Source: Methanocaldococcus lauensis
GTDB taxonomy: Archaea > AGJL01 > Methanococci > Methanococcales > Methanocaldococcaceae
Assembly: GCA_902827205.1 (NCBI GenBank)
Contig: LR792634.1
Coordinates: 124,001 to 188,000, forward strand
Reading direction: 5' to 3'
Length of the DNA: 64,000 nt
Both the position numbers and the translations under genes were made by a program. Shown here piece by piece: positions 13,380-51,666 of this stretch (its first letter is position 1; each line of letters starts with the position of its first letter). The notes under the pieces were generated by a model. It saw only the letters and a list, made by a program, of their open reading frames with translations. It was not told the origin of the DNA and did not search any database.

Positions 13380-14815
13380 GTCTAAAATCAGACCCCTAAG
13401 GGGATGGAAAGTATCATCAAGTGCTTTTTTAACAATCCTTATACCCTTAGTCTAAAATCAGACCCCTAAGGGGATGGAAAGAAATTCTACAGAAACGTTT
13501 CCATTGAAAGAAAACCCTGAACGTCTAAAATCAGACCCCTAAGGGGATGGAAAGTGTAATTTCAACATTAAACTCATTTGGAATGTCAGCACAAGGTCTA
13601 AAATCAGACCCCTAAGGGGATGGAAAGAATATCTTAGATACCTTAATTAGTTTCTTGGATAGTGAATGTCTAAAATCAGACCCCTAAGGGGATGGAAAGA
13701 TAATCTCGTCGTTTTGAGGATTGTTCATAAAGAATCGTCTAAAATCAGACCCCTAAGGGGATGGAATTTGTGATAGTTAGAGAGTTAAAAAGCTTAAAAT
13801 CAACATTTAAGTCTAAAATCAGACCCCTAAGGGGATGGAATTGCCTTAAATAGGCTTCTTTTGCGTAATGCCTTGTCCAATCGTCTAAAATCAGACCCCT
13901 AAGGGGATGGAAAAATATCGCTCCAAACCGACCACGTATTCGAAAATGTCTAAAATCAGACCCCTAAGGGGATGGAAAACTTTTGTGTTGATAGCTTGAG
14001 ATATGTATGCAGGTCTAAAATCAGACCCCTAAGGGGATGGAAAATTCTAAAATATCTGTTAATTTAGCAACTGCATTTAACAAGTCTAAAATCAGACCCC
14101 TAAGGGGATGGAAAATCATCTTCATATATCACCTCCAAAATTCTTAAAAAATTGTCTAAAATCAGACCCCTAAGGGGATGGAATTTGGTGGGCTAAGATG
14201 CTTATGGGAAGTATGCAAATGCTACCACGTCTAAAATCAGACCCCTAAGGGGATGGAATTAAGATTGTGTATAATGAACTAAATTGCAGTGACAACGTGT
14301 CTAAAATCAGACCCCTAAGGGGATGGAATTGTGGAAAAAGAACTTGCTGAAATAACTTTTAGATATGAGTCTAAAATCAGACCCCTAAGGGGATGGAATT
14401 CATTGGCCGTGTCGGATCAATGAAAAGGGTTATTTGGGTCTAAAATCAGACCCCTAAGGGGATGGAATTATAGAGGGAGCTCCTATCTCAGTTCTCTTTG
14501 TAGGGTCTAAAATCAGACCCCTAAGGGGATGGAAAGACGGGTGTCTAACATTGAACAACGGGAGCTCCGCCTGAAGTCTAAAATCAGACCCCTAAGGGGA
14601 TGGAAAGTCTGGAACATCTCTCTTATCTTCAACACTGCTATTATCTTCAGTCTAAAATCAGACCCCTAAGGGGATGGAAAATAAGAGATTTCACAATAGA
14701 GTTAATACAGACATTAAGAAGTCTAAAATCAGACCCCTAAGGGGATGGAAACATCTAATTGATGATTTTTTATGGCTTTAATTGTTAAGTCTAAAATCAG
14801 ACCCTAAGGGGAAAA
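13380..14815 (+). CRISPR. CRISPR array, 21 repeats and 20 spacers, leader on the left
   Basis: Repeat units begin at 13380, 13450, 13523, 13596, 13668, 13737, 13811, 13883, 13948, 14013, 14084, 14154, 14229, 14299, 14369, 14438, 14505, 14576, 14650, 14721 and 14789. The invariant core is 30 bases: it begins GTCTAAAATC, has a CCCCTAAGGGG hairpin in the middle and ends GATGGAA; spacing is 65-75 bases, so spacers are about 35-45 bases and all differ. The bases after GGAA vary in blocks (AG, TT or AA). The last unit (14789) has lost a C and the ATGG, marking the leader-distal end. The core resembles M. jannaschii repeats, which carry a similar TAAAATCAGACC start. No cas genes are in the window, so the machinery acts in trans. 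Confidence 0.98.
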
Positions 14816-14837
14816 TAATATTAAATTAAGAGGTATT

Positions 14838-14893
14838 GCCGAGCATTGCGAGGCAATGCATCCCGGGTATCCCAATAGGGCGGAGTCCTATGG
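14838..14893. other. G+C-rich structured islet at the distal end of the CRISPR array
   Basis: Between the last repeat and a decayed repeat remnant lies a short G+C-rich sequence in otherwise A+T-rich DNA. It contains a perfect 7-bp hairpin (GCATTGC, loop GAG, GCAATGC) and a second imperfect one formed by CCCAATAGG and CCTATGGG. In Methanocaldococcus such islets often mark structured RNAs, but no known class is recognised and strand is undetermined. Confidence 0.4.
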
Positions 14894-14923
14894 GTTTAAA
14901 ACTCAGACCCCTAAGAGAATAAA
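14894..14923 (+). repeat. Decayed CRISPR repeat remnant
   Basis: The sequence GTTTAAAACTCAGACCCC and then CTAAGAGAAT aligns to the array repeat with a few substitutions. It shows that the array once extended about 100 bp further or that distal repeats were separated by insertion of the G+C-rich islet. Confidence 0.7.
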
Positions 14924-15076
14924 AGTATTTAAATTTTTTATTTTTAATAGCATAAAATATCCATATATAGAAATATATAAATCATTAGGATATATAATAT
15001 AACATTAATTTTTATATAGTTCAATAAAATAAGTAATTCCATCCAGTTTTTTAAAACAAAATTATTGAGGGGAATT

Positions 15077-22289: not shown

Positions 22290-22351
22290 AATGGCTATGA
22301 TGAAAAGAGGGTTATCTGAACTGTGATGAGACTTACCCGAACTGAGCCATT
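22290..22351 (+). ncRNA. Box C/D guide RNA, double guide against 23S rRNA
   Basis: The 62-base RNA has a 7-bp terminal stem (AATGGCT with AGCCATT), box C ATGATGA at 22297-22303, box D' CTGA at 22316-22319, box C' GTGATGA at 22323-22329 and box D CTGA at 22342-22345, the standard archaeal layout with two 12-base guides. The D' guide matches 23S antisense at 57784-57794 over 11 bases and the D guide matches 57755-57764 over 10 bases. By the D+5 rule the predicted 2'-O-methyl targets are the 23S residues at window positions 57790 and 57761, equivalent to E. coli C1920 and G1949. It is too short and G+C-distinct to be coding and lies antisense-adjacent to the ZPR1 gene. Confidence 0.92.
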
Positions 22352-49629: not shown

Positions 49630-50385
49630 ATGTTTAAGGAGTTTAAGGCATTGTTGTCATTTTTTACAAGGTTTCCTATTTATGTGGAAGATTTTGATTT
49701 TGAGAAAGTTGCGAGTTATTTTTACTTTATAGTTTTAATTGGATACATATTTGGAATTTTTAGTTTGTTTGTTGGTTACATTTTTAGTTTTTTCCTACCT
49801 AATCTTTTAACAGCTATTTTAATTTTGTTTTTTATAGAATATTTAAATGGTTTTCATCACATGGATGGTTTAATTGATTTTGGAGACGGATATATGGCTG
49901 TTGGAGATAAAAAAAAGAAGTTAATGGCTATGAAAGATAGATATATTGGATGTGGAGGAGTAGTTTTTGCAATATTTATCAATTTGATGGCTATATTTTC
50001 TATATCTTACATTTTAGAAATTAATATATTGTATTTACTTGTTGGAGAGGTTTGTGCAAAATTGGGAATGCTCAGTTGTTCAACTTTTGGTAATCCATTA
50101 ATTGAAGGAACTGGAAGATACTTTGTAAAAAAAAGTGATGAAAAATTTTTAACAGTTGGAATAATTTTATCATTGCCTTTAATACTTCTATTTGATGGAA
50201 TTCATAGAAAAGTTGTTATAATTGCTATATTAGTTCCTATAATTACTGGCTTGTGTATGGCTAAAATAGCTAAAAAGCATTTTGGAGGAGTAAATGGGGA
50301 TGTATTAGGAGCTTCAAATGAAATAACAAGGGTTGTTGTATTACTAATAATAATAGCATCAATTAAGGCTGTTTCCAACCCATAG
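49630..50385 (+). CDS. cobS: Adenosylcobinamide-GDP ribazoletransferase (cobalamin synthase)
   Basis: The 251-residue integral membrane enzyme joins adenosylcobinamide-GDP with alpha-ribazole in the last steps of cobamide synthesis. The conserved [18 protein letters not shown] motif lies at about 70-87, and [13 protein letters not shown] near 220. It has about seven helices. The start ATG at 49630 follows TTGGGGATAAC. Confidence 0.92.
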
Positions 50386-50389
50386 TTTC

Positions 50390-50515
50390 ATCGAGAATAC
50401 CATTCTCTCTGCCATAGGCTCATTGGACTTCGGGCTGAACAGAGACAGCCCCATAAAAGGAATTTATAAGCATTTATAATAACCTCGAAGGCAGTGCCTC
50501 CTCATCAGATAATTA
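50390..50515. ncRNA. Candidate structured RNA, G+C-rich island after cobS
   Basis: In a 276-bp gene-free gap an island much richer in G+C than its surroundings shows three perfect hairpin candidates: GAGAAT-ACC-ATTCTC (50403-50417), GGGCTG with CAGCCC (about 50431-50451) and AGGCA-G-TGCCT (about 50490-50500). TATA-like sequences GAATTTATAAGC and its complement lie in the middle. In A+T-rich methanogens such islands are usually stable RNAs. It is not a tRNA, RNase P or SRP RNA, and no clean C/D boxes are seen. Strand is undetermined. The remaining 150 bp to 50661 is plain A+T-rich sequence. Confidence 0.5.
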
Positions 50516-50661
50516 ATAAATAATGGCTCTTGGGATTGTTATTAGAATAATATTAGAAATCGATTGTCTATATCTATTAATAAATAAAGTTAATGTTTGA
50601 TTTTTCAAATAGTAGTTATTGAGATTGTTATAATTTTGTTATTTAATGCGTTATAATATTA

Positions 50662-51666
50662 TTATATAACTCCTGTTTCTTCAGCCAATTTTTTTGCCTC
50701 TTCTCTATTTAATCCATCTCTTAATATAGTCCATCTATTTCTAATCTTGTGAGCTATAGTTAACGCCTCAATAATAATATCTTCATCAAAGCCCAACTCT
50801 TTAGATGTAGTGGGAGCATTAACTTTCTTTAGGGATTCTTTTATTTTTGTAGATAAACCAGATAATTTTTTATTCTCTTTTTCGTGTAAATAACTCATCA
50901 TAATTGTTCCTACACCACACTGCTCTCCATGCAATGAATTTACATTTAAATTATATTTTTCTTTCAACAAATCTAAAGCATGTGAAAAAAGATGCTCACT
51001 ACCAGAAGCTGGACGAGAAGAGTTGGCTATAGCAATAGCTATCCCACTACCAACTAAGGCCTTTACAAGTTTATTTGTATATTCAGACAAATCAGAATTT
51101 AGAACATAGCTAATTAATTCTTTTGCAATAGTTTTTGAAAATATAGCAGAACTTTCACTATATCTTTCTCCCTTTTCTTTATACGCTAATTTCCAATCTA
51201 AAACTGCAGTAATATTTGAAACTATATCTCCCATACCAGCACTTAATAATCTTTTTGGAGATTTTTTTATTATTTCAGTGTCGGCAATAATAGCTATTGG
51301 AGCTTCTACCATAAATGACGGTTGTTTTATAGATACTATAGGAGAGGCAATTCCATCATTTGAGGCAGTTGTTGGCACACTGATAAAGGGAACTCCTAAT
51401 TTGTATGCTAAATATTTCCCAGTATCTATAGATCTTCCCCCACCAACTCCTACTATGCAGTCATATTGAATATAATCTTGTTTTTTTATTGTTTGTGATA
51501 AAATTTTATCGTAGTATTCAATGTCATAGGGAAATTTACAGTATTTTTTTGTATGTTTTCCAGTAACAACTAAAGGATTTTTTAAGTTAAGTTTTTTTAA
51601 AACATCTTTTAGTTTATTAATTGCTCCATCCTCAATAATTGTAAATCTTGGCGTTGTAATTATCAT
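50662..51666 (-). CDS. egsA: sn-glycerol-1-phosphate dehydrogenase
   Basis: The 334-residue enzyme makes the sn-G1P backbone of archaeal lipids from dihydroxyacetone phosphate. The NAD-binding [16 protein letters not shown] and metal-binding residues in [10 protein letters not shown] and [10 protein letters not shown] are present. The start ATG at 51666 ([10 protein letters not shown]) agrees with the M. jannaschii start and follows GAGGGAAACG; the longer frame to 51699 overlaps hypF. Confidence 0.93.

Follow-up and report, generated by a model that had tools for sequence, protein, structure and literature searches.

The question raised by this locus is what is encoded by a G+C-rich island (positions 50390-50515) just past a cobS-like gene in a stretch of 64,000 nucleotides from the archaeon Methanocaldococcus lauensis (contig LR792634.1, positions 124,001 to 188,000 of the forward strand; hereafter the window, numbered from its first letter). 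A preliminary description, made from the sequence alone, had taken the island for an isolated candidate gene of a stable RNA of unknown class. Very probably it is instead a solo copy of an IS607-type transposable element, neither autonomous nor any longer mobile, of which only the portion encoding the guide-RNA scaffold of the nuclease TnpB is left.

The island is as rare a patch as had been described. Its G+C content is 42.1%, compared to a mean of 29.3% (standard deviation 5.7) in 126-base segments outside the block of rRNA, tRNA and RNase P genes, and 1.8% of these segments reach the same value. Among the 24 separate equally rich patches outside the block, 20 lie inside open reading frames (ORFs) of at least 120 amino acids (coverage 0.92-1.0) and three belong to an array of clustered regularly interspaced short palindromic repeats (CRISPR; 13804-14929); the island is the only other one. 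Three hairpins are present on the minus strand (S1, S2 and S3b; Table 1), and TATA-like sequence is legible on both strands at about 50463-50485. Single-sequence folding of the island is weakly better than that of its shuffles, with a z of -2.02 on the plus strand (5/200 shuffles equally good) and of -1.40 on the minus strand (15/200). ARAGORN detected no tRNA in the island and no Rfam family reached its gathering threshold there, nor did any match 50340-50680 up to E = 5, in agreement with the statement that the island is not recognisable as one of the common stable RNAs. The bounds originally given to it did not hold, as the real unit is wider, from 50369 to about 50521.

Far from being isolated, the island belongs to a dispersed family of copies. 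A DNA search gave strong matches (E < 1e-15) at 15 further places of the same genome (G000) as well as in G001, G005, G008, G009 and G015; a sixth genome, G012, had a weaker match. Where matches carry names (five cases), they come from a metagenome-assembled genome of Methanocaldococcaceae. A covariance model spanning S2 to S3 (R2), built from 26 copies with the window copy left out, found 37 places spread over seven of 41 genomes, with the genome of the window accounting for 17, and matched the window copy at 50366-50455 with 100.8 bits (E 1.9e-20). On the minus strand, the right end of the copies reads AACGG, AACAG or, once, AATGG, followed by unique sequence, and the left end starts with GGG in 16 of the 20 aligned copies, preceded by A in 15 of these 16. 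The flanks differ from copy to copy, which is expected from random insertion. No inverted ends or duplicated flanks were visible in the aligned ends by eye. IS607-type elements are described in PMC6188088 as having neither terminal inverted repeats nor target duplications. The A/G context at the left end may be compared by analogy to the target motifs of IS607 TnpB, which PMC11061315 reports as AG-rich. Two copies have unusual surroundings beyond their right ends. In L037 the flank resembles the part of another copy from S3b to the right end, as if a mini-element had been inserted into a mini-element, and in L028 a C/D-like RNA lies directly beyond the right end (2229-2284 of that locus, minus strand; sR1 at 38.2 bits against a cut-off of 45, with related models matching too).

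A free-standing gene for a small RNA of unknown class, or for an H/ACA or C/D modification guide, is an extremely improbable account of such a family, even though the G+C-rich island, its hairpins and the TATA-like sequence would suit it. It is contradicted by the scattered copies with their sharp element ends and gains nothing from Rfam, which gave no match. The window copy terminates in ACAG, as would suit an H/ACA guide, a type that had been suggested for testing; however, in the alignment of 31 copies (A1; the window copy and 30 others) this terminus occurs in only five, the rest ending in ACGG or, once, in ATGG, and no Rfam model of such a guide matched. Alignment with the region beside cobS in relatives had been proposed as a check; the patch was missing from every one of the cobS loci compared, which came from 13 further genomes.

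The origin of the copies is evident from the longer ones, which encode the C-terminus of TnpB on the minus strand relative to the window. In G015 the TnpB has 442 amino acids and a Cas12f1-like TNB domain, and in G009 (L056) a serine recombinase ORF (PF00239) lies directly before tnpB, which identifies the parent element as IS607-type; the pairing of a serine recombinase tnpA with tnpB is thus found for the family and not at the window copy itself. When the R2 places were compared to the places of TNB domains in the same genomes, 11 of the 37 copies abutted a tnpB on the same strand (four in G000, two in G001 and one each in G005, G008, G009, G012 and G015) and 26 were solo, the window copy among them. 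The position that marks TnpB guide RNAs, at the 3' end of tnpB and the right end of the element on one strand, is thereby seen in the linked copies, and the solo copies retain tnpB codons. Two blocks derived from tnpB survive in most of the solo copies in A1, and the codons for the zinc finger and RuvC-III that lay between them have been lost. In four tnpB copies (L055, L056, L057 and L059) the protein tail has been frameshifted into another frame, yet the RNA blocks persist.

One internal deletion followed by drift of the linker could give all the solo copies, and the blocks might then be no more than ends to which the recombinase binds, together with residual tnpB codons inherited from a single founder; in that case no solo copy would ever have made a guide RNA. 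Such a plain DNA fossil, which also fits with the failure to find an active TnpA or TnpB of the family in the genome of the window, is possible and in our view somewhat doubtful. What it leaves unexplained, whether protein coding or plain DNA ends are invoked, are the repeated double changes in S3 and S3b and the position of a predicted pseudoknot; a DNA hairpin could account for the right-end palindrome S5, and hardly for S3b.

Pairing conserved across species was observed in 91.5-92.6% of alignment cells. Five helices with 41 pairs in total make up the structure named here. Its pairs are present in 92.6% of the cells of A1 and in only 30-47% when the partners are slid by one to three columns, a comparison that favours the structure, as it was picked by us from the same sequences. 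Double changes were found at 13 pairs, compared to 7.5 in shuffles. Much of this covariation signal comes from S3b and S3, in which five pairs switch type at least five to nine times on a tree built without them. RNAalifold, applied to the whole alignment, gave just 15 pairs, and the structure was for that reason named by us and then counted. A further hairpin, S4 (GGGTTG/CAACCC), overlaps and competes with S3 and S5.

A contact between the five guide-flanking nucleotides and an apical loop is annotated as a feature of TnpB guide RNA in PMC10711439, according to which breaking it in ISXfa1, an element with an IS607 TnpB, cuts activity and restoring the pair gives a 100-fold rescue; the corresponding pseudoknot is described for ISDra2 in PMC10097598. 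In the island family, complementarity between the S2 loop (CCGTT) and the terminal five bases of the element (AACGG) holds in 144 of 153 cells, and the window copy carries the altered pair CTGTT/AACAG. The contact is predicted from this complementarity, and covariation statistics lend it no support; since it is nearly invariant, covariation neither proves nor refutes it.

Several observations weigh against a guide-RNA element at this locus. S1 shows one-sided changes only and no double changes, and tree-aware sign tests of single pairs fall short of significance, being underpowered because of the few independent contrasts. The pseudoknot did not reach significance under joint permutation (1570 of 5000 permutations equally good), and three of the five ACAG copies mismatch in it. 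The window copy has lost the right-end hairpin of other copies, CTATGGGTT being joined straight to GGAAACAG, and also its outer left end: with a model of the left end built from 20 copies, nhmmer recognised nothing past 50521. In the genome of the window, 126 residues are missing from both longer tnpB copies, the segment ALDFN among them; the two remaining linked copies are fragments, and a resolvase was matched only once, in a pseudogene interrupted by three stops. The truncated ends, defective tnpB copies and broken resolvase indicate that the element is probably immobile here, with no nuclease from its family at its disposal. As neither a TnpB nor a transposase of the family turned up intact in this genome, the window copy is most likely a fossil that is still able to fold. 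The ALDFN segment is presumably the site of the first RuvC aspartate. The two longer tnpB copies (L041 and L042; G000:C1:1030772-1030987 and 494299-494514) have an identical internal deletion and apparently arose through copying of an already deleted form.

The right end of the window copy sits inside a gene which, following the preliminary description, we take to be cobS. In the 13 other genomes cobS ends differently and without the element, from which it follows that the element gave the gene its last codons and stop. The genes neighbouring cobS vary between genomes, so no clean empty site is available for comparison.

Table 1. Features of the window copy and of the gene that it enters (positions in the window).
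Feature	Positions	Strand	Basis
Conserved mini-element core (tnpB-derived block, linker, guide-RNA scaffold, right-end terminus)	50369..50508	-	A1 alignment; R2 match
Last recognisable left-end bases; outer left end not found	50509..50521	-	nhmmer, left-end model of 20 copies: weak match ending at 50521
Hairpin S1 (codons DERALPSR in tnpB copies)	50487..50501	-	97.2% of cells paired, one-sided changes only
A+T-rich linker, TATA-like on both strands; in place of tnpB zinc-finger/RuvC-III codons	50458..50486		Sequence; alignment with tnpB copies
Hairpin S2; loop CTGTT (50438-50442) complementary to the last five bases of the element	50432..50451	-	95.0% of cells paired
Stem S3, 5' arm	50412..50420	-	90.3% of cells paired, double changes at 3 pairs
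Hairpin S3b within S3	50393..50407	-	91.9% of cells paired, double changes at 4/6 pairs
Stem S3, 3' arm; plus strand contains the cobS-like stop codon (50383-50385)	50377..50385	-	Sequence, pairing count
Right-end terminus GGAAACAG; last five bases AACAG, predicted pseudoknot with S2 loop	50369..50376	-	Terminus common to other copies
Putative guide: flank antisense to the cobS-like 3' end	50349..50368	-	Position just past the element end
cobS-like gene; final codons AVSNP and stop from the element	49630..50385	+	C-terminus compared to cobS of 13 other genomes

It is likely that the minus strand is to be read in the order of tnpB C-terminal codons, S2, S3 with S3b and right-end terminus. The bases of the terminus would pair with the loop of S2 as a pseudoknot, and the bases beyond, antisense to cobS, would serve as the guide. 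Where the element is intact, this RNA would be released from the tnpB transcript by cleavage and bound by TnpB, and the guide RNA would direct cleavage of the vacated donor site, with the result that the element is retained. Such guide-directed cleavage of the donor site is known from other TnpB elements. In the window copy the RNA could come from read-through of a gene on the same strand ending at 50662, or from the TATA-like linker. We infer that this RNA is or was made and acted as a guide RNA. The identity of the island as a worn transposon end with a putative TnpB guide-RNA scaffold is well supported; its present activity is not.

Solo copies might also have been exapted, being transcribed and used in trans by another cellular TnpB for regulation or defence. 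This is suggested by the 26 of 37 copies that are solo and foldable, by the TATA-like linkers in some of them and by the transcription reported in Thermococcus kodakarensis (PMC4247193) for HgcC, an RNA of the same layout. We regard it as decidedly unlikely, as the genome of the window gave no intact TnpB of the family, nothing connects the 392-amino-acid TnpB of a different kind that is present there with these RNAs, the differing flanks match random insertion and the window copy is situated as a relic.

HgcC (RF00062) bears on the matter in its own right. The island had been likened to the stable RNAs of A+T-rich hyperthermophiles, and the "high-GC" RNAs proved an apt comparison, since HgcC shows the same architecture. 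A search with RF00062 (gathering score 50 bits) in the 41 genomes gave 23 matches over the cut-off in eight genomes, several copies in some. The island itself is not HgcC: the genome of the window gave best scores of 25.6 and 20.8 bits, both at places other than the window copy, and none of the 37 R2 places coincided with an RF00062 match over the cut-off. Both families are multicopy, G+C-rich and mostly without an adjoining tnpB, and in both the loop of a leading hairpin can pair with the last bases (six in HgcC), beyond which the flank is unique. The 15 HgcC loci inspected (L091-L096, L098, L104-L109, L114 and L115) end in GGTCAG, once in GATCAG and once in GGTCAA, and then pass into unique sequence. 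In 14 of them, pairing between the loop CTGACC and the end, though nearly invariant, holds in 97.6% of cells, and the named HgcC structure is paired in 94.8%, with eight double-change pairs compared to 3.5 in shuffles. For five of the 23 matches a tnpB is no further away than about 1.1 kb, and in each case HgcC stands upstream of it and diverges from it. This is not the canonical position, and HgcC is for that reason not classed here as a TnpB guide RNA without reservation. Direct homology of the island copy L030 to HgcC was rejected, as the whole-genome search puts most of the weak match on the neighbouring flank. The right end of that copy (about 2181-2285; G000:C1:85510-85614) abuts decayed HgcC-like sequence, as if it had been inserted into an HgcC element.

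Five HgcC transcripts are reported in T. kodakarensis, three of them sense and starting inside transposase genes (PMC4247193), and in 2017 the function of HgcC was called unresolved (PMC5732400). In our reading, HgcC is probably a second solo guide-RNA family. That hyperthermophilic methanogens would hold two unrelated tnpB-less families of guide-RNA genes, the IS607-type island family and HgcC, with guides used in trans by TnpB elsewhere, seems unlikely; if true, the genome would hold a scattered, transposon-built set of guide RNAs. In the open-licence literature we found no paper treating both HgcC and TnpB, and recognised none as describing the element family of the island.

It seems that the label of an unknown RNA can give way to a concrete and testable identity. 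An archaeal IS607-type family of putative guide RNAs is provided with covariation and without a match to any Rfam model here, a direct hypothesis is offered for HgcC, and a natural setting is described in which solo guide-RNA elements exceed those linked to tnpB (26 versus 11). The cobS-like gene is in addition a case of a mobile-element end giving a stop codon to a metabolic gene. Elsewhere in the window, a CRISPR array with repeats GTCTAAAATCAGACCCCTAAGGGGATGGAA and unique spacers lies at 13500-14820, with a long ORF at 15065 immediately downstream, and an sR3-type C/D RNA was found on the plus strand at 22293-22347 (49.8 bits, above the gathering score).

Compared to known systems, the island family has its own sequence. 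The island had no match to RAGATH-18 or other Rfam families up to E 5, the presence of RAGATH-18 among the models not having been checked, and Rfam searches of eight copy loci up to E 1 gave nothing except the weak HgcC match beside L030. PATEs (palindrome-associated transposable elements) of Haloquadratum outnumber their parents, as the solo copies do; unlike these, they derive from IS605-type elements, and the account of them in PMC3119063 makes no guide-RNA reading. In ISDra2 the TnpB omegaRNA likewise overlaps the 3' end of tnpB and the right end of the element and forms a pseudoknot between the pre-guide bases and an upstream loop, although ISDra2 is an IS200/IS605 element with another transposase and a locus of tnpA and tnpB (PMC10097598). 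For the reRNA or omegaRNA of IS607 TnpB, we compared ISXfa1 (PMC10711439) and ISFba1 with its RAGATH-18 RNA (PMC11061315). From these the island family differs in sequence, in a guide role that is putative and in the absence of tnpB at 26 of 37 places, and the window copy in its missing right-end hairpin. As these sources describe it, the IS607 guide RNA follows the 3' end of an IS607-type tnpB on the same strand, is built of stem-loops, pairs its pre-guide bases with an apical loop and ends at the transposon boundary, and in all of these the island family is alike.
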